Positions 222 to 31,156 of a stretch of 64,000 bases of DNA are shown one piece after another (within the stretch, counting starts at the first letter, position 1; each line of letters starts with the position of its first letter). Source of the DNA: an uncultured Bryobacteraceae bacterium (lineage in GTDB: Bacteria; Acidobacteriota; Terriglobia; Bryobacterales; Bryobacteraceae); the NCBI GenBank assembly GCA_937924525.1, contig CALDSU010000005.1:744001-808000 (forward strand), given 5' to 3'. The translations under genes were made by a program, and so were the position numbers. The notes beneath the pieces were generated by a model. That model did no database searches. It had not been told where the DNA came from and was given only the letters and a program-made list of their open reading frames with translations.

Positions 222-3200
222 ATGCGCCGCTTCGCTTTGGCAACAGGTTTGTTCCTTGTCACGCTGACGGGCCGAATGTACGGCCAGACTGACTCGGCTT
301 CGCTTCGCGTGCTGGTGGAAGACGCCACGCTGTCGCCGGTGGGCGCCGCGGTGGTGACGCTGGCCAATCTCGCCACCGGGGTTCGGACCGAAGGCCTGAC
401 CAGCGCCGATGGCTACACGGTGTTCAGCCCGATTCAGCGCGGGCTCTATGAAGTGATCGTGGCCAAGCCCGGCTTCAAGAGCTTCAAAGTGAACGAGGTC
501 CGTATTAACGTGGACGAACGCCGTCTGCTGCGGGTACGTCTCGACGTCGCCGAGGTCAGCGAGACGGTCGAAGTCACGGCGAACGTGACCAGCATCCAGA
601 CCGAGCAGGGCTCGCTCGGACAAGTGATTGGAGGGCGGATCGCCATCGAGCTTCCGCTGGCCGGACGGCGGTACACCGACCTGGCGCTGCTGGCGCCGGG
701 CGTCGCGCCCAGCACGCTGACGCCGGTCACGCGCGGGCCCGGGTGGTTCGTGTCGAACGGCAATTATCATACGCAGAACAACTTCATTCTTGACGGCGTT
801 GACAATAATCAGGGCACCACGAATGCCCAGGCGTTGAGCGCGCAGGTAGTGCAGCCCAATCCGGATTCCATCGCCGAGTTCAAGGTGCAGACCAACTCGT
901 TCTCGGCCGAGTTTGGCCGCAGCGCCGGCGCCGTGGTCAACGTGTCCATCAAGGGCGGCACCAACGCAATGCACGGCTCCGGCTGGTATTTCAATCGTGA
1001 CGCCGCGCTGGCGGCCCGGGGCTGGTCCAACAATCTGAACAATCTGCCCAAGTCCAACCTGCAATGGCACCAGTTCGGCGGCACGGTGGGCGGGCCGCTG
1101 GTGAAGAACAAGCTATTCTACTTCGGCAGCTATGAAGGCTTCCGGCAGGACTTCGCGAACACCTTTCTCACCACGGTGCCGAGCGCCGAACAGAGGCAGG
1201 GCCGTTTCGACCCCGCCACCCGGATCATAGACCCCACTACCGGTCAGCCCTTTGCGAACTTCTCGGTGCCCGCCACGCGCTTCGATGCGCTTGGCAAGAA
1301 ATTGATCGACCTGTATCCCGCGCCCACGCAAGCGGGGCGGGTGGCGAACGGCCGCCCGGTGGATAACTTCGCCGCGCAGCGCGACGGCACGGAAAACACG
1401 CACAAATTCGACGTGAAGAGCGATTACGTGTCCAGCGAGCGCGACCAGTTCATGGTGCGGTTCAGTTTCTTGCGGCAGAAGTTCAACCGCGAGGCGATCT
1501 TCGAAGGGCTGGCCGACGGCGTCGGCAACCAGGGCTCGCAGTACAACGACAATCAGAGCCTGGCCACGAGTTGGACGCGCACGTTCAGCCCGCGCTTTGT
1601 GAACACGCTGCGGTTGGGGTTGAATCGCACGTTCGCCGAGTTTGCGCACGCCACGGCCGGCGCGCAGAAGGCGGACGCCTTCGGCTTTCGCGGCATCCCG
1701 GAACCGCTGCTGCAAGTGGGCGGGCTCCCGCTGATTGACGTAAATAACTACAACGACCTGGGTACGCGCAACTTCCGGCCCCAGTTCCAACGTCCGTACA
1801 CGACGCAGATTTTTGACAGCCTGTCGATGACGCTGGGACGGCACTTCATCCGCACCGGTTTCGAGGCGCGGCTAAAGGACAACACGTTCATTGACATCAC
1901 GCGGCGCACGCCCGCCTACGGCTTGCCCGGGGTGTTCACCGGCGACTCCATGGCCGACTTGCTGCTTGGCCTGCCGGAGTGGCTCCAACTGAACACCGTG
2001 CCCGAGGTCAAACAGCTGCAGCGAGCCTACAGCGGGTTCTTTCAAGACGACTGGAAAGTGCGCCGCGACCTGACCTTGAATCTGGGTCTGCGCTACGAGT
2101 ACACCACCCCCTTCTACGGCAGCGGTACGAACCGCAATATCAACTTCGACCCGAACACGGGCGGCCTGGTATTCGCCTCCGCCGACGACAAGTATCTGGT
2201 AACGCCGGACCGGAACAACTTCGGCCCCCGCTTGGGCATGGCTTGGCAGATGCTGCCCGAACGGCTCGTGCTGCGCGGCGGCTATGGGATCTTTTACAAT
2301 TCGGAAGACGTCTACGGTTCGGAGGCCAATCTGCCGCTCAACCCCCCGCAGTTGACGCAGGCCCGGTTGCAGCGCGTCGGCACCGGACCCGCCCCGGTGC
2401 GGCTGAGCGACCCCATTCCCAGCGGTGTCCTCTCCCGTTTCGATTCCCGCACCGTCGCCCTGCGCACCCGGGAGCGCGACCAGCGGTCGGGCCTGATCCA
2501 ACAATGGAATGTTGCGCTCCAAATCCAATTGGACCGTTCCTCCACCTATGAAGTGGCCTACGTCGGGAACCGGGGCCGGAATCTGTTCGGCCTGTATGAG
2601 CGCAACCAGACGCCGTTCGGCGTTGACGGGTCGGTGCCGGCCAACCGGCCTTTCCCCCAATGGCAGGGCATTCAGACCGGCGCCACGCGCGCACGTAGCT
2701 GGTACAACGCCATGCAGATGAAGTTCGAGCGCAATGTCACCAACAGCATGTTTGCGCTGGTCAGCTACACCTGGGCGGCTGCGATCGACCAGGCCGGCGC
2801 CTGGGACGCGGGCTCGTCGCCCCAGTTTCGGGATAACTTCGCCGCGGAAAACGGCCGCATGAGCCAGACGCCGAGACATCTGGTCACCATCGCCTCCACG
2901 TACGAGTTGCCGATCGGCCGCGGCCGAAAGATCGGCAACGGCTGGTCGCGGGGGGTAGACTTCCTGCTGGGCGGCTGGAAGGCGTCTGGCATTCTGTTGT
3001 GGCGGACGGGTCTGCCGATCAATGTGGGTTTGAGCCTGGCCGGCACCGATCCCGCCACTGGCCAGAATTACCGCTTCTTCAACCGCAACGGCGGCGGCCT
3101 GCGTCCCGACCGCGTGGGCGAGGCGAACACCGGCGTCAGCCCCAAGGAGAACCGCCTGCGGTTCCTCGATGTGGCCGCCTACCGCGTGCAGACCCTGAAC

Positions 3201-3446
3201 ACCCCCGGCAACGCGGCGCGCAATTCGGCTTACGGCCCGCGGTTCTTCAATACCAACTTCGTGTTCGCCAAGAGCTTCCGCCTGGCCGAAACGAAGGCGG
3301 TGGATTTCCGCTGGGAGGCCTTCAACTTGTTCAATACCGTGAACTTCGCCAATCCGAACACGTCGTTCGGAGGAACCACTTTTGGGCAGATCAACTCGGC
3401 GCTCGATCCACGTGTGATGCAATTGGGCATCCGGTTTGCGTTCTGA
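222..3446 (+). CDS. Oar-like TonB-dependent receptor with carboxypeptidase-regulatory-like domain
   Basis: This is a 1074-aa outer-membrane protein. Residues 1-22 are a signal peptide (MRRF start, hydrophobic core, ending near MYGQ). Residues about 25-105 form a carboxypeptidase-regulatory-like beta-sandwich domain (VLVEDATLSPVGAAVV, then LRVRLDVAEVSETVEV). A plug-like region follows (FILDGVDNNQGT, then FKVQTNSFSAEFGRSAGA, a motif run typical of Oar-like receptors). The rest is a long beta-barrel ending in an aromatic residue (IRFAF), as outer-membrane barrels do. Length and order match the large Oar/TonB-dependent receptors expanded in Acidobacteriota; the substrate cannot be read from sequence but is often an oligosaccharide or peptide. 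A TAGCAT hexamer at 209-214, 7 nt before the ATG, may be a -10 element, and there is no Shine-Dalgarno. The downstream Gfo/Idh/MocA gene may share a sugar-related role. Confidence 0.92.
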   Translation: MRRFALATGLFLVTLTGRMYGQTDSASLRVLVEDATLSPVGAAVVTLANLATGVRTEGLTSADGYTVFSPIQRGLYEVIVAKPGFKSFKVNEVRINVDERRLLRVRLDVAEVSETVEVTANVTSIQTEQGSLGQVIGGRIAIELPLAGRRYTDLALLAPGVAPSTLTPVTRGPGWFVSNGNYHTQNNFILDGVDNNQGTTNAQALSAQVVQPNPDSIAEFKVQTNSFSAEFGRSAGAVVNVSIKGGTNAMHGSGWYFNRDAALAARGWSNNLNNLPKSNLQWHQFGGTVGGPLVKNKLFYFGSYEGFRQDFANTFLTTVPSAEQRQGRFDPATRIIDPTTGQPFANFSVPATRFDALGKKLIDLYPAPTQAGRVANGRPVDNFAAQRDGTENTHKFDVKSDYVSSERDQFMVRFSFLRQKFNREAIFEGLADGVGNQGSQYNDNQSLATSWTRTFSPRFVNTLRLGLNRTFAEFAHATAGAQKADAFGFRGIPEPLLQVGGLPLIDVNNYNDLGTRNFRPQFQRPYTTQIFDSLSMTLGRHFIRTGFEARLKDNTFIDITRRTPAYGLPGVFTGDSMADLLLGLPEWLQLNTVPEVKQLQRAYSGFFQDDWKVRRDLTLNLGLRYEYTTPFYGSGTNRNINFDPNTGGLVFASADDKYLVTPDRNNFGPRLGMAWQMLPERLVLRGGYGIFYNSEDVYGSEANLPLNPPQLTQARLQRVGTGPAPVRLSDPIPSGVLSRFDSRTVALRTRERDQRSGLIQQWNVALQIQLDRSSTYEVAYVGNRGRNLFGLYERNQTPFGVDGSVPANRPFPQWQGIQTGATRARSWYNAMQMKFERNVTNSMFALVSYTWAAAIDQAGAWDAGSSPQFRDNFAAENGRMSQTPRHLVTIASTYELPIGRGRKIGNGWSRGVDFLLGGWKASGILLWRTGLPINVGLSLAGTDPATGQNYRFFNRNGGGLRPDRVGEANTGVSPKENRLRFLDVAAYRVQTLNTPGNAARNSAYGPRFFNTNFVFAKSFRLAETKAVDFRWEAFNLFNTVNFANPNTSFGGTTFGQINSALDPRVMQLGIRFAF

Positions 3447-23285: not shown

Positions 23286-23365
23286 GAGCGGTTGACGGAA
23301 GCGGCCGGGCGCCGGCCGCAAAACGGGTAGTGTACTACTCCGCCGGGGCCAGCGGATAATTGGGT

Positions 23366-25195
23366 GTGGATCCGATCGAAACGTATCGCACCCGGCTTCA
23401 GGAACGCCTGGGCACGGCGGCCGGCGGCGAAAGGCTCCATATTCGCATCGGGAATTTGCGCCTGTTGACCGCCGTCGTCGCGCTGGCGCTGATCTGGATG
23501 TCCTGGAGCCGTGCGGCCGTGCCGCCGTGGATTCCGTTGGCGCCGGCGCTGTTCTTCAGCGGGCTGGCGGTCTGGCATGCGCGGGTGATCCGCCGCCGGG
23601 ATCGCGCCGCCCGCGCAGCCCGGCACTTCCAGCAGGGCCTGGATCGGCTGGCCGGGAGTTGGGCAGGCCAGGGCGATCCCGGCGACCGTTTCCGGGACGA
23701 GGCGCACGTCTACGCCGAAGATCTCGACCTGTTCGGTCCCGGGAGCCTCTATGCCCGGCTGTGCACCGCGCGCACGCCCGCGGGCCAGGAAGTGCTGGCG
23801 GAATGGTTGCGCGCGCCGGCGCCGCTCGCCGAGGTGAAACAGAGGCAGCAGGCGGTGGAGGAACTGAGGAACCGGGTGGATTTGCGGGAGGCGCTCGCCC
23901 TGCTCGGCGAGGCTCCTTGCGGCCTGCACTCGCGCGCGCTCATCGAATGGGCCGAAGCGCCGCTCGTGCTGGCGGAGGGCCGACTCTGGCTGGCGGCGAT
24001 GGCTCTGTCCGCCTGCATGCTGGTTTCCTGGACGGTCTGGGCTTTGCTTGGCAGCGCGGCGGCGTTCCTGGTGGTCTTGCTGCCTGTTGCGATTTTGGGG
24101 TGGCGCTTGCGGCAGCGCGTGCGGCGGGTCTTGGGCGGCGTCGATGCCGCGCTGCACGGCTTGGACCTGTTGTCGGGGGTGCTGGCTTTGTTGGAGCGGG
24201 AAGCGTTTGCCGCGCCGCGTCTGGCCGCGCTCCGCGCGCGCCTCTCCTCCGGCGGAGATCCCGCTTCCCGGCGCATCGCCCTGCTCGGCCGGATCGCCGA
24301 ATGGATCGACTCCCGCGACAACCTGCTGCTCCGGATGGCCGGACCTCCATTGCTGTACTCCACCCACCTCGCCTTTGCCGTGGAGCGCTGGAGAAGACTC
24401 TCGGGTCGGGACGTGCGGCGCTGGCTCGAAGCCGCCGGCGAGTGGGAAGCGCTCTGCGCGATCGCCGGCTATGCGTTCGAGCATCCCGAAGATCCGTTTC
24501 CGGAACTGGCCGAGACGGGGCCGGAGTTTTCGGCGGAGGGCCTGGCCCATCCTTTGCTGCCATCCTCGCGCGCCGTCCGCAACGATGTCCGTTTGTCGGC
24601 GGCCGAGCCCCTGCTCATCGTCAGCGGGTCGAACATGTCTGGCAAGAGCACGCTGCTGCGGACGGTGGGCGTCAATGCCGTGCTGGGATTAGCCGGGGCG
24701 CCGGTGCGCGCCCGCCGGCTCAGGTTGAGTTTCCTCCACCCGGGAGCCACCATGCGGATCCACGACTCGCTGCGCGAGGGGGAATCGCGGTTTTCGGCGG
24801 AGATCAAGCGGCTGCGCAAACTGCTGGATCTGAGCGCCGGCGGGACGCCCGTCCTGTTCCTGCTGGACGAACTCCTGCATGGCACCAACTCGCACGACCG
24901 GGCGATTGGCGCCGAAGCCGTTGTCCGCGGTCTCGTCCGGCACGGGGCCATCGGGCTCATCACGACGCACGATCTGACGCTGACTTCGATCGCCGCCACG
25001 GCCCACGGGCGCAACATCCATTTCGAGGACCGCCTGGAGGACGGCCGCATGACCTTCGACTATCTGGCGCGCGACGGAGTGGTCACCAAGAGCAACGCCC
25101 TTGAACTGATGCGCCTGGTCGGTTTGCCTGTTGCCCTGTCCGAGGCGGACAAGAGCGAAGGGCCGCTGGCGCGACCCGCGGAAAAACGCCCCTAG
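23366..25195 (+). CDS. Membrane-anchored MutS-family ATPase
   Basis: This 609-611-aa protein carries only the MutS core and ATPase parts. Two hydrophobic regions are seen at about 33-75 and 205-245 (for example AMALSACMLVSWTVWALLG), predicting about four membrane segments. The lever/core region (ARLCTARTPAGQEVLAEWL ... LEEVKQRQQAVEELRNRVDLRE in parts) is MutS-like. The ATPase has Walker A SGSNMSGKSTLLRTVG (about 420-432), the MutS-specific GATMRIHDSLREGESRF, Walker B PVLFLLDELLHGTNSHDR and LITTHDLTLT. The mismatch-recognition domain (F-x-E) is absent, so it is not a classical repair MutS. GTG at 23366 follows a GATAAT box by 5 nt; a TTG at 23360 is the alternative. Confidence 0.88.
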   Translation: MDPIETYRTRLQERLGTAAGGERLHIRIGNLRLLTAVVALALIWMSWSRAAVPPWIPLAPALFFSGLAVWHARVIRRRDRAARAARHFQQGLDRLAGSWAGQGDPGDRFRDEAHVYAEDLDLFGPGSLYARLCTARTPAGQEVLAEWLRAPAPLAEVKQRQQAVEELRNRVDLREALALLGEAPCGLHSRALIEWAEAPLVLAEGRLWLAAMALSACMLVSWTVWALLGSAAAFLVVLLPVAILGWRLRQRVRRVLGGVDAALHGLDLLSGVLALLEREAFAAPRLAALRARLSSGGDPASRRIALLGRIAEWIDSRDNLLLRMAGPPLLYSTHLAFAVERWRRLSGRDVRRWLEAAGEWEALCAIAGYAFEHPEDPFPELAETGPEFSAEGLAHPLLPSSRAVRNDVRLSAAEPLLIVSGSNMSGKSTLLRTVGVNAVLGLAGAPVRARRLRLSFLHPGATMRIHDSLREGESRFSAEIKRLRKLLDLSAGGTPVLFLLDELLHGTNSHDRAIGAEAVVRGLVRHGAIGLITTHDLTLTSIAATAHGRNIHFEDRLEDGRMTFDYLARDGVVTKSNALELMRLVGLPVALSEADKSEGPLARPAEKRP

Positions 25196-25394: not shown

Positions 25395-25422
25395 TTGTAC
25401 CTTTTGGCGGTGATGTTATTCT
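25395..25422 (+). promoter_or_regulatory. Promoter of the pseudokinase-TonB gene
   Basis: TTGTAC (25395-25400) and TATTCT (25417-25422) are separated by 16 nt, and the -10 is preceded by TG (an extended -10). The predicted start near 25429 gives a leader of about 29 nt that contains GAGGA (25444-25448) before the ATG at 25458. Confidence 0.5.
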
Positions 25423-25457: not shown

Positions 25458-26795
25458 ATGGGGGACTCGATCTTGTCTGATTGGGCGGATACGCCCGCTC
25501 CGATTCGCGCCGAACCCTCCAGACCCGGTTTGGATCTGGCGGGCGCGCGTCGCGCCGCCCTGAGTCAGTTGCGCGGGCGGTTGCGCCGGGAGCCGGATCT
25601 GGTGGCGGCTTTCTGGGCGGAGATCGCCTCCCCCGACCGGATCGCCAATCCCGATGCGACGGTGTTGTACGCGCAGCTGGGATACGCCGGCAAAGCTTAT
25701 ACCATTCTTGAATTCGTTTCCGGAGAGACGCTGGAACAATTCGTCAAGCGGGCGGATCCGGCCGAATGCGAGTCGGCGATTCCGCTGTTCTGCCGGGTCC
25801 TGGATGCGTTCGAGGAGGCGGAGCGCAAGCCGGGCGGTCTGCCGCTGGCGCCGAGCAGTTTTGCCGATTCCGGCGTGGCGCTGAGCGATTTCGGGATCTG
25901 CCGGGTGACGGCGGAGTGCGCGGGCCGGGCGTACGGCACGCTGCTGTTTACGCCGGGAGGGCTGTCTCCCGAAGAGATCGTGCGAGAAGATCACGCCAGC
26001 CGGGCCGAGGTGGTTGGCCTGATGTTGGCCGTGCAGCAGAGTCTTGGGGGCCACCTTCCGGCGAACGCGGACGTAACCCCGGCCAAGCTGGCGGACATCT
26101 TCATCGCGCCGCTCCACGGCCGGCAGCGGAGGCTGGAACGGCCAGAGGCCGCCCAGGCGGCGCGCGAACCGGCGGCGCCGTCGCACCGCGGCAGGTTCTA
26201 CGTCCCAACTCCCGTCATTGCCTTCGTCACGGCCGCTCTGCTTCTGGTGGCGCTGTTCGGTTCGGCGCAAGTGGTTTCCCAGTTTGCGCCGCGCCAGAGT
26301 GCGATGTCCCTGCCTCAATTCCCGCCGCTGCCGGCCGAACTGGCCGCCGACGATGCGGCCAAACCGGCGCCGGATCGGTCCGTGATTCCGATTACGGTCA
26401 CCCCGGAGACACCTGCGGCGCCGAAAACCGCGCCGGGGCGGCAAACCGCCGCGACGAACCGGACGCCCGCGCTGTCGGCCGCCGCCAGCGTGAGCCAAGC
26501 GCCGGTCGCCGCCGGGCTTACCCGGGGCGCCAAGCTGCTCTCTTCCCCCGAACTGGCCTATCCGGAAAAGGCCAAGGACCAGCGGGTCTCCGGCGTGGTG
26601 CGCCTCGAGGTCCTGGTGGACGAGGATGGAACCGTCAAGCAACCGCGTATCCTGAGCGGTCACCCGCTGCTGCGGGCGGGACTGGTGGATGCGGTGCGGC
26701 ACTGGATGTATCAGCCGGCGCTCCTCAACGGGAAGCCGGTGCCGATGACCGCGGAGATCGAGATTAAGTTCAACCTGGACCGCAGCCGTCCCTGA
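25458..26795 (+). CDS. Degenerate protein kinase fused to a TonB C-terminal domain
   Basis: The protein has 445 aa. Residues about 65-200 look like the remains of a Ser/Thr kinase: AYTILEFVSGETLEQFVKR (hinge and alphaD), then ALSDFGICRV with DFG at 144-146, and YGTLLFTPGGLSPEEIV in the activation-segment/APE position. The HRD catalytic loop and an ATP-binding Lys/Gly-loop are not recognisable, so I infer a pseudokinase. Residues 252-272 are one membrane segment (VIAFVTAALLLVALFG). A Pro/Ala-rich periplasmic linker (about 285-355) leads to a TonB C-terminal domain (about 365-442: LAYPEKAKDQRVSGVVRLEVLV, DAVRHWMYQPALLNGKPVP in parts). ATG at 25458 is chosen for its GAGGA; a TTG at 25395 lies inside the promoter. 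The layout suggests an energy-coupling or envelope-sensing role with cytoplasmic input. Confidence 0.8.
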   Translation: MGDSILSDWADTPAPIRAEPSRPGLDLAGARRAALSQLRGRLRREPDLVAAFWAEIASPDRIANPDATVLYAQLGYAGKAYTILEFVSGETLEQFVKRADPAECESAIPLFCRVLDAFEEAERKPGGLPLAPSSFADSGVALSDFGICRVTAECAGRAYGTLLFTPGGLSPEEIVREDHASRAEVVGLMLAVQQSLGGHLPANADVTPAKLADIFIAPLHGRQRRLERPEAAQAAREPAAPSHRGRFYVPTPVIAFVTAALLLVALFGSAQVVSQFAPRQSAMSLPQFPPLPAELAADDAAKPAPDRSVIPITVTPETPAAPKTAPGRQTAATNRTPALSAAASVSQAPVAAGLTRGAKLLSSPELAYPEKAKDQRVSGVVRLEVLVDEDGTVKQPRILSGHPLLRAGLVDAVRHWMYQPALLNGKPVPMTAEIEIKFNLDRSRP

Positions 26796-28004: not shown

Positions 28005-28025
28005 ATGTCGGCGGGCCTGCCTTGA
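28005..28025 (+). other. Mini-ORF overlapping the start of the second receptor
   Basis: A Shine-Dalgarno (AGAAAGGAA) precedes an ATG at 28005 that reads six codons (MSAGLP) and stops at TGA 28023-28025. That stop overlaps the TTG at 28022 where the receptor frame opens. Either the receptor starts at TTG by termination-reinitiation, or a one-base error has separated the true ATG from the frame. Confidence 0.4.
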
Positions 28026-31000
28026 CTTCTTCATTGTTTCGCCTGATCGTGCTGGGAGCGCCGCTGGCCTGGCTGGCGCTGCACGCGCAGAACCGCCTGG
28101 CGGCGGTATCCGGCCGGATCAGCGACGCCGACGACCGGCCGCTGGCCGGCGCCCGCGTGGCGCTGGTTTCGCTGGATACGGGCCGGGTCCGCGCGGTGGC
28201 GAGTGGCAGCGGGGGCGAATTCGCGCTGGCGCAGGTGGCGCCCGGCCGCTACCGCGTACAGGTGAACCGGGAAGGCTTTCGCGAGTCGGTCCAGGAGTTC
28301 GAGTTGTTGTTGAATCAGGAGGCGCGGGTGGACATCCGGCTGCTGCCGGGCAGCCGCAGCGAGCAGGTGCAGGTCACGGCCGCTCTTCCGGTGCTGCGCA
28401 CCGAATCGGCCGCCATGGCCACCGTCATCGAGAATCACCAGGTGCGCGGCTTGCCGCTGGACGGGAGGAATTTCTACGAACTCTCATTGCTGGCGCCGGG
28501 GACGGCGCCCGCCGCGCCCGGCTCGCCGGGTTCGGTCCGCGGCGATCTGGCGATCCATACCAACGGCGCGCGGGAGGACTCGAACAACTACGTGCTGGAC
28601 GGCATTTACTCGGGAGATCCGAAGCTGAACGGCTTTGGCATCACGCCGCCCGTGGACGGCGTCCGCGAGTTTGAAGTGCTCACCAACTCGTACGACGCCT
28701 CCTTCGGCCGCAACGCGGGCGGACAGATCAACGTGATTCTCAAGTCCGGCTCGAACCGCGTGCATGGGACCGCGTATCAATTCTTCCGGAACGCGGCGCT
28801 GGACGCCCGGAACTTCTTCGCTCCGGCCGCCGAACCCACTCCGAAGTACAACCGCCATCAGTACGGATTCGCGCTGGGCGGTCCGGTGCGGAAGGATCGC
28901 ACGTTTTTCTTTGCCGATTATGAGGGCCGGCGCGTGCGGGAGGGCATCACCCGGCTGACCAACGTGCCGACGGCGCAGGAACGCGAGGGCGATTTTTCCG
29001 CCGGCCCCGCGCCGGTGATCGATCTGTTCACGCAGCGGCCGTTTCCCGGCAACCGAATCCCCGCCGCGCGCCTGCATCCCGTCGGCGCGGCGATCGCACG
29101 TCTCTATCCCCTGCCGAACCGGGCCACGCCGGGACAGAACTACGTCTCCTCACCCACCCTGCGCGACCGCAGCGACCAGTTTGATATCCGGCTCGATCAG
29201 GCCTGGACGGCGCGGGACGAGCTGACGGCCCGCTACAGCTTCGGCGACCGCAGCCTGTACGAGCCGTTCGCCGGCGCGGCGTTCGCCCAGGTGCCAGGAT
29301 TCGGGAACGACGTCGCCAAGCGGGGGCAGAACGCGCTGCTCAGCCACACGCACACGTTCACTCCGCGCCTGCTGAATGAACTGCGGCTGGGCTTCAACCG
29401 GATCGGGTTCGGCGTGCTGCACGAGAACAGCGGCGTCAGCCTGAACCGGCAGGTGGGCCTGCCTGACCTGGCGACCGCGGCGCGGGATCAGGGCCTCAGC
29501 CTCATCACTCTCACCGGCTTCTCCCCGCTGGGCGACGAGTACTTCAACCCGCAGGCCAGCGTGACCAACACGTACCAGGTGAACAACCAGACCAGTTGGG
29601 CGGCCGGAAGGCACATGGTGCGCTTTGGGCTGGACGTGCGCTGGCTGCAACAGAACGCGTTCCGGAACATTCAAGGCCGCGGGTTCATCAACTTCCTGGG
29701 GCGGAGCGGCAATGCGCTGGCCGAGATGCTGCAAGGGATTCCCTCCGTCTCCGGCGGGGCGCGGATGGATAACCCGCAGCATCTGCGGACGCGGAGTTAC
29801 AACGCGTTTTTTCAGGACACGGTGCGGCTGCGGTCCGACCTGGCGCTGAACCTCGGCGTGCGGTACGAGTACAACACCCCGGCGGTAGACCCGCGCGACC
29901 GCGCCACGCTGTTTGACGAAACCACCGGCGCGCTCACCCCGGTGGGCCAAGGGGGGATGCCGCGCGCCGGTTACGTGCCGGATCGCAACAACTTCGCGCC
30001 GCGGGTAGGCTTGGCGTGGAATCCGGGCAGAGGGGGCACGGTGCTCCGCGCCGGCTACGGGGTCTATTTCGACCAGTCGGCCCTGGCGCCGAGCGAGGGC
30101 TTGTATTTCAACGCGCCGTATTACCAGTTTCAGTTGTACTTCTCCTCGCCTTTCTACACACTGCTGCTGCACGATCCGTTTCCCGCCGCGTTTCCGGCGC
30201 CTTGGCCCCAGTCGGCGCTGGCTTTCCAGCGCGACCTGCGGACGCCCTATGTACAGCAGTGGAGCCTTGGCGTCCAGCGGCAGATCGGTCCCGGACGCGT
30301 GGTGGAGGCGGCTTACGTCGGATCGAAGGGGACCAAGCTGATCTCCGGGCGCGACATCAATCAGCCCGCGCCGAGCCCGCTGCAACCCAATCCGCGGCCG
30401 AACCCGCGCTATGACGACGTGAACCGGATCGAATCGCGGGCCAGTTCCAACTATCACAGCCTGCAACTGCGCGCGCAGCAGCGATTGCGCAAGGGGTTCT
30501 CGCTGCTGGCGGCTTTTACGTATGCGAAATCCATCGACGACGCGTCGAATTTCTTTCCGAGCGCGGGCGATCCCAGCTACCCGCAGAACAGCCACGACGT
30601 GCGGGCGGAGCGGGCGCGCTCGGCGTTCGATCTGCGCCAGCGCCTTTCGGCGGCCTACTCGTACGAACTGCCGGTTCTCCGCCGGCGCCGCTGGCTGGGA
30701 GGCTGGCAGACGTTCGGCATCCTGACCTTGCAAACCGGGCGCCCGTTCACGGTCGCGCTGCCGTCGGAGTTCGACAACAGCAACACCGGGCGGAGCGCGC
30801 TGGGCTTTGGCGCCAACGACCGGCCGCATGTGCTCCGCGACCCCCGCTTGCGCAATCCCACCCCGGAACGCTGGTTCGACACCGCGGCGTTCGCGGTGCC
30901 GGCCTTCGGCACGTTCGGCAACTCGGGGCGCAACGTGCTGGACGGGCCGGGCCTGGCCTCCTGGAACGTATCTCTTCTCAAGGACACCCGGGCCAGCGAA

Positions 31001-31156
31001 AGCCTGACCGTGCAGATGCGGCTGGAAGCGTTCAATGTGTTCAACCGGCCCAACTTTGACTTGCCGGGTTTGTTCCTCGGCGGCGCCGGCTTTGGCGCCG
31101 TGCAGGCGGCGCAGCCCGCCCGCCACGTGCAACTCGGCCTGAAGTTTCTGTTCTGA
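28022..31156 (+). CDS. Oar-like TonB-dependent receptor with carboxypeptidase-regulatory-like domain
   Basis: This 1044-aa outer-membrane protein parallels the receptor at 222. Residues 1-23 are a signal peptide (SSLFRLIVLGAPLAWLALHA), about 25-105 a carboxypeptidase-regulatory-like domain (VSGRISDADDRPLAGARVAL ... RYRVQVNREGFRE in parts), then a plug-like region (YVLDGIYSGDPKLNGFG, FEVLTNSYDASFGRNAGGQI) and a barrel ending GLKFLF. The first codon of the frame is TTG with its Shine-Dalgarno serving an overlapping 6-codon ORF. No binding partner is linked, though the FAD oxidoreductase follows convergently. Confidence 0.9.
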   Translation: MTSSLFRLIVLGAPLAWLALHAQNRLAAVSGRISDADDRPLAGARVALVSLDTGRVRAVASGSGGEFALAQVAPGRYRVQVNREGFRESVQEFELLLNQEARVDIRLLPGSRSEQVQVTAALPVLRTESAAMATVIENHQVRGLPLDGRNFYELSLLAPGTAPAAPGSPGSVRGDLAIHTNGAREDSNNYVLDGIYSGDPKLNGFGITPPVDGVREFEVLTNSYDASFGRNAGGQINVILKSGSNRVHGTAYQFFRNAALDARNFFAPAAEPTPKYNRHQYGFALGGPVRKDRTFFFADYEGRRVREGITRLTNVPTAQEREGDFSAGPAPVIDLFTQRPFPGNRIPAARLHPVGAAIARLYPLPNRATPGQNYVSSPTLRDRSDQFDIRLDQAWTARDELTARYSFGDRSLYEPFAGAAFAQVPGFGNDVAKRGQNALLSHTHTFTPRLLNELRLGFNRIGFGVLHENSGVSLNRQVGLPDLATAARDQGLSLITLTGFSPLGDEYFNPQASVTNTYQVNNQTSWAAGRHMVRFGLDVRWLQQNAFRNIQGRGFINFLGRSGNALAEMLQGIPSVSGGARMDNPQHLRTRSYNAFFQDTVRLRSDLALNLGVRYEYNTPAVDPRDRATLFDETTGALTPVGQGGMPRAGYVPDRNNFAPRVGLAWNPGRGGTVLRAGYGVYFDQSALAPSEGLYFNAPYYQFQLYFSSPFYTLLLHDPFPAAFPAPWPQSALAFQRDLRTPYVQQWSLGVQRQIGPGRVVEAAYVGSKGTKLISGRDINQPAPSPLQPNPRPNPRYDDVNRIESRASSNYHSLQLRAQQRLRKGFSLLAAFTYAKSIDDASNFFPSAGDPSYPQNSHDVRAERARSAFDLRQRLSAAYSYELPVLRRRRWLGGWQTFGILTLQTGRPFTVALPSEFDNSNTGRSALGFGANDRPHVLRDPRLRNPTPERWFDTAAFAVPAFGTFGNSGRNVLDGPGLASWNVSLLKDTRASESLTVQMRLEAFNVFNRPNFDLPGLFLGGAGFGAVQAAQPARHVQLGLKFLF

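Follow-up and report, generated by a model that had tools for sequence, protein, structure and literature searches.

A membrane pseudokinase with a TonB-type C-terminal domain in a Bryobacteraceae bacterium: a possible unpowered transmembrane scaffold or sensor

A gene in a 64,000-nucleotide stretch of DNA from an uncultured Bryobacteraceae bacterium (the whole stretch is called the window below) codes for a protein in which, as read from its sequence, a segment derived from a Hanks-type kinase and devoid of the catalytic residues is followed by a single membrane helix, after which comes an intact TonB_C domain. The sequence-only reading had proposed that a degenerate kinase and a TonB C-terminal domain, with a membrane helix between them, form one protein, and Pfam, NCBIfam, phmmer, hhalign and alignment agree on this combination. 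We favour tentatively, at slightly less than an even chance, the hypothesis that this membrane pseudokinase with a TonB-type C-terminal domain serves, without being powered, as a scaffold or sensor across the membrane; its topology, docking partners and signal direction are inferred.

Layout of the gene and its product

The gene is a 445-codon ORF with an ATG at 25458 and a stop codon ending at 26795. A start at an in-frame TTG at 25395 would add 21 residues, still without a glycine-loop motif. The features are the following, the relative being the only other full-length fusion (P0003):

25458 to 26795, + strand: whole gene, pseudokinase segment, membrane helix, linker and TonB_C, 445 amino acids
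25527 to 26057, + strand: kinase-derived segment, residues about 24-200 (about beta3 to alphaF), from sequence matches
25563 to 25565, + strand: Ser36 where kinases have the VAIK lysine (the relative has Pro there), from alignment with five intact-looking kinases
25620 to 25622, + strand: Glu55, at the alphaC glutamate position, identical in 7 of 7 aligned rows
25821 to 25826, + strand: deletion in the catalytic loop (HRD lost) between residues 122 and 123, just before the retained Lys124-Pro125, from alignment
25887 to 25895, + strand: retained DFG, Asp144-Phe145-Gly146 (Glu-Phe-Gly in the relative), from alignment
26205 to 26273, + strand: single membrane helix, residues about 250-272, without Ser-x3-His/Gln, from hydropathy, pattern scan and comparison
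26274 to 26549, + strand: Pro/Ala-rich linker, residues about 273-364, presumed periplasmic
26550 to 26777, + strand: TonB_C domain, residues 365-440, Pfam PF03544

The C-terminal domain belongs to the TonB family by its Pfam score (E 1.7e-17, 64.1 bits for a curated cut-off of 24.6) and NCBIfam TonB_Cterm also matches the 445-residue protein above its cut-off. Besides TonB_C, Pfam at E up to 10 gives one chance-level match only. The best 19-residue hydrophobic window, 249-267, marks the sole hydrophobic helix. The 20 residues flanking this window hold three Lys/Arg before and one after; these counts weakly indicate an N-terminus inside, since the relative has four before yet three after, and the orientation is drawn mostly from the layout.

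Kinase descent of the N-terminal segment

Several profile and sequence comparisons place the N-terminal segment, by clear homology, within the Hanks-type kinase superfamily. NCBIfam PknB_PASTA_kin matches residues 26-201 (E 1.3e-6, 27.8 bits), a score so far under the equivalog cut-off of 450 that it denotes homology and not membership. When PDB sequences are searched by phmmer with residues 1-261, StkP matches at 1.3e-7, followed by PknB and PknA at 2.5e-6 to 7.8e-6. A profile built from the two fusion members alone reaches PknB at 1.2e-11. In a single hhalign comparison, the pair of members matches five kinases of the same order (intact-looking, picked from the best matches) with 99.6% and E 6e-24. 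Scored with an HMM made from 15 viral-contig kinases, the whole fusion protein reaches 43.4 bits and the relative 26.9; among 2000 shuffled versions of residues 1-240, the highest score is 6.4. The N-terminal profile, run over 257 genomes of the order, gives 511 and 493 bits for the two members and at most 85 for everything else; the six of these lower matches that were inspected are Ser/Thr kinases with HRD and DFG. The sequence-only reading had considered that the N-terminal region might instead match a different family, which it did not. A kinase that ranks among the intact sequences nearest to the pseudokinase segment has its gene start overlapped by a PP2C-like phosphatase gene, named by reading (L019:512-2859).

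AlphaFold2 with 15 kinase rows and the two members (17 rows) yields a kinase-like model of low confidence (mean pLDDT 49.6), with Foldseek matches to kinases (best 1.4e-5) and VIA-align Z up to 8.5, values around 8 being middling by the tool's own warning. Since 15 of its rows are kinases, this model is no independent proof of the fold. The two members alone give pLDDT 40.9 and no match at E <= 0.001. A kinase fold is thus a deduction from homology. It is very improbable that the segment is not kinase-derived and that the likeness arose by chance, as could be argued from that two-row model and from Pfam Pkinase, which finds no match in the fusion protein at E up to 10 nor in the relative at 0.01, when NCBIfam, phmmer, hhalign, the 15-kinase HMM and the two-member profile all give strong kinase matches.

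Loss of the catalytic apparatus

The motifs of the catalytic apparatus, given here under their standard names, were located in a seven-row alignment of the two fusion members and five intact-looking kinases. No glycine-loop motif is recognisable there before Gly24. VAIK reads Ala-Ala-Leu-Ser36 in the fusion protein and Tyr-Ala-Ile-Pro in the relative. HRD is removed by an 8-column gap after which Lys124-Pro125 remain; the relative has lost the His of HRD in a 7-column gap and carries a Gly at the Asp position. The catalytic Asn position is Gly127, the Glu172 of the APE motif is kept, and the alphaF Asp position is Glu184. Since about 50 residues are left between alphaF and the membrane helix, there would be no room for alphaG-alphaI, and the C-terminal loss is deduced from this length; the C-lobe of the relative is shorter still. 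The sequence-only reading had placed DFG correctly at residues 144-146 and had seen neither HRD nor an ATP-binding Lys/Gly-loop, which is right and understated, the HRD being deleted, the lysine replaced by Ser36 and no glycine motif present.

Of the VAIK Lys, HRD Asp and DFG Asp that characterise an active kinase, only the DFG Asp is kept. The review PMC12599244 defines a pseudokinase by kinase homology together with the loss of one or more of these three residues; two of the three are lost here and all three in the relative. Catalysis by the kinase-derived segment would be very unlikely, and nucleotide binding unlikely. We rejected membership of the GLW pseudokinases, described in the same text as carrying a GLW motif in place of HRD (PMC12599244), because HRD is deleted here rather than substituted and the GLW motif is absent.

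Neighbouring genes and receptors

The neighbours of the fusion gene are a MutS-like gene, fliM and a receptor gene. The MutS-like protein (window 23360-25195, + strand) has MutS domain V, with a domain III match below cut-off, and apparent hydrophobic helices, by eye, in its N-terminal half. The fusion gene ends 172 bp before fliM. The gene of the relative is flanked by a cysH/cysC-like stretch and an enolase-superfamily-like gene (both named by reading), and no neighbour is common to the two members. Because the only relative has these different neighbours, so that the proximity to fliM is not conserved, we rejected a flagellar role.

The sequence-only reading had also pointed to two very large TonB-dependent receptors in the window. 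Both are present. The ORF at 28022-31156 has matches to OMP_b-brl_4, CarboxypepD_reg and the TonB-receptor barrel, with Plug below cut-off; the ORF at 222-3446 contains a barrel of the same family between window positions 948 and 3422 (G000:C5:744948-747422). Their presence does not, however, argue for a functional link, since the genome (5.5 Mb) has 69 matches to the PF25183-type barrel in 65 places and two receptors in 64 kb are unremarkable. These roughly 65 large outer-membrane barrels compare with 7 TonB_C proteins in the same genome.

The membrane helix and coupling to ExbB/ExbD

The helix was compared with those of 11 short TonBs, one from contig 9 of the same genome, six from others of the bacterial family and four from elsewhere in the class; L008 was left out because of a frame error. 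All 11 carry a Gln in the helix, preceded four residues earlier by Ser in 10 and Gly in one. This Gln falls where E. coli TonB has the His of Ser16-x3-His20, and three other TonB_C proteins of the genome have Ser-x3-His. Passages of PMC12215075 on the E. coli complex describe the Ser-His pair as contacting ExbB and report the His as essential. A pattern scan for Ser/Thr-x3-His/Gln/Asn finds nothing in the helix of either fusion member; one such pattern occurs in the relative at residue 282, beyond the helix. Because Ser-x3-His/Gln is absent from both helices, membership among the ExbB/ExbD-coupled TonBs appears to fail on the single feature of that class that can be tested, which does not prove the absence of contact with ExbB/ExbD.

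A tonB-exbB-exbD-exbD run (exbB named by reading) lies on contig 9, away from the fusion gene, and a Tol-like set (Tol names by reading) on contig 7; no exbB or exbD gene adjoins either fusion member. The sequence-only reading had suggested that the kinase-like part gives a cytoplasmic input to powered TonB-dependent transport. This idea is weakened by the missing helix signature, by the lack of adjacent exbB/exbD and by the uninformative receptors. On this reading, the protein would be a genuine additional TonB that ExbB/ExbD drive and that the pseudokinase regulates as its head in the cytoplasm. The TonB_C domain is indeed close to those of short TonBs, with which it shares an SGHPLL stretch (best match in its own genome 42% identity), and the genome offers three ExbD matches and about 65 candidate receptors. 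The Gln of the 11 short TonBs nevertheless has no counterpart in the two fusion helices and neither gene has an exbB/exbD neighbour, and we regard a second TonB as unlikely, if the best of the alternatives.

Two further short TonB_C proteins of the genome (L083:1300-1731 and L085:1168-1734, 143 and 188 residues) have N-terminal parts that look hydrophobic and signal-like by eye; their genes lie away from exbB/exbD.

Distribution and constraint

Full-length fusions were found in 2 of 237 genomes of the bacterial family with 7 candidates per genome scored; 53 of the 237 match at 1e-24, the rest of them at the TonB_C end. Even samples of 399 genomes of the class and 396 of the phylum, searched at 1e-30 with 4 candidates per genome scored, returned only the window's own fusion; these samples overlap the family set, evidently without the second fusion genome. 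A pattern scan of genome contigs found one relative among 45 stretches, in JACOSH010000339.1 (an Acidobacteria groundwater MAG), whose protein is the same as that of the second family genome (G003). The two fusion proteins are 42% identical. In the one pairwise comparison between them (dS 1.3-1.7, near saturation), the kinase segment has a dN/dS of about 0.36, compared with 0.19 for TonB_C and 0.75 for the periplasmic linker. The kinase segment looks constrained, given its value of about 0.36 against 0.75 in the linker.

These figures bear on two alternatives of about the same, low probability, each somewhat behind the second TonB. One is an unpowered decoy, whose TonB_C would occupy TonB boxes and damp transport while the pseudokinase merely anchors or dimerises. 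An intact TonB_C behind a helix without the coupling signature would suit it, but a decoy has no need of a constrained kinase-derived domain. The other is a relic, a receptor kinase with a decaying domain and little or no present function. The rarity of full-length copies, together with the missing DFG Asp and shorter C-lobe of the relative, speaks for decay; against it, neither frame is interrupted anywhere along its length, and the kinase domain evolves more slowly than the linker.

TonB_C as a module in the bacterial family

Among 16 long TonB_C frames analysed with Pfam, nine carry M56 (BlaR1-type), two TPR, one DUF4097, and four have no other domain. The M56 fusions are L172, L173, L176, L177, L178, L183, L184, L185 and L189, seven of which have two or three TonB_C stretches. 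No kinase domain was found by Pfam in any of 20 TonB_C frames from other genomes, chosen for long open frames among the matches listed; an intact-kinase ancestor joined to TonB_C was thus not found in this set. Outside this 20-frame scan stand L174, L179, L180, L181, L004, L014, L016 and L030; by eye, L174 is M56-like with a complete TonB_C and the beginning of a second, and L004 has no kinase. The frames of L179, L180 and L181, at the coordinates used, contain stops.

The frames L171:115-2397, L175:201-2549, L182:324-2486 and L186:329-2278 share an N-terminal domain without a Pfam name, followed by a Pro-rich stretch, a membrane helix and TonB_C; by eye, their helices also lack Ser-x3-His/Gln. 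Scored alone, this domain is matched in 108 of 121 genomes of the family and occurs in the window's own genome at G000:C1:417577-418128. One of the four has a sub-threshold JAB/MPN match (E 0.056), RSN, RSN, RSQ and RSH stand at the expected metal site, and a profile search of PDB gave no match. These TonB_C proteins may carry a JAB-like domain that is inactive.

With M56, TPR, DUF4097 and unnamed-domain fusions among the scanned frames, the joining of TonB_C to non-motor proteins is ordinary in the family; its fusion to a pseudokinase is a rare case of this.

Proposed function

In the hypothesis that we favour, the pseudokinase would be cytoplasmic and TonB_C periplasmic. TonB_C would dock at the outer membrane, on the TonB box of a receptor or on another envelope partner, without drive from ExbB/ExbD. 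The pseudokinase would offer a docking or dimerising surface to a cytoplasmic partner, plausibly one of the Ser/Thr kinases of the genome, where 11 Pkinase matches above the Pfam cut-off are candidates. Engagement in the periplasm would thereby be reported to the cytoplasm, or tethered from it. The protein would work like the pseudokinase scaffolds EssB/YukC or MviN, unlike TonB, which is a motor arm.

A broader idea, which we consider improbable, is that Acidobacteria have evolved a whole class of TonB-like sensors that are not powered. Their TonB_C would contact outer-membrane receptors, and a domain across the membrane would report the receptor state inwards, so that signals pass from the outer membrane to the cytoplasm without ExbB/ExbD. 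The reporting domain would be a dead kinase here, and an M56 peptidase or the unnamed domain in relatives. If the TonB end does bind receptors undriven, the cell would have a route to learn which of its dozens of receptors are engaged. The analysis also suggests that TonB_C in these bacteria is not to be equated with energy coupling, and the helix signature separates the likely motors from the pseudokinase fusion.

What is new is the TonB-type domain as the partner of a membrane pseudokinase, membrane pseudokinases themselves being known. We found no report of a pseudokinase joined to a TonB domain among the open-licence PMC papers listed. To our knowledge, few bacterial pseudokinases have been studied.

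Comparison with known systems

MviN is a membrane protein. In receptor Ser/Thr kinases of the PknB/StkP type (Hanks type), the kinase domain is followed by a single membrane helix and then by a C-terminal domain. The fusion follows this receptor layout with a homologous kinase-derived domain, but it has no catalytic residues, its C-lobe is truncated and TonB_C stands instead of PASTA repeats.

EssB/YukC and MviN resemble the fusion in having a kinase-derived domain without catalytic motifs in a membrane protein, and the scaffold role given to them in the main text of PMC12599244 is taken as precedent for the one proposed here. That text describes the EssB/YukC pseudokinase as recruiting partners and stabilising dimers, and the MviN pseudokinase domain as recruiting FhaA once phosphorylated by PknB; TonB goes unmentioned in it (PMC12599244). 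Both differ from the fusion by serving T7SSb and peptidoglycan synthesis, with other partner domains and no TonB_C.

The fusion shares with ExbB/ExbD-coupled TonB a membrane helix, a Pro-rich linker and TonB_C, and differs from it by a large pseudokinase head and a helix without Ser-x3-His/Gln. The M56 (BlaR1-type) fusions of the same bacterial family likewise carry TonB_C on a signalling-type protein; their N-terminal domain is an M56 peptidase, and they often have two or three TonB_C stretches.
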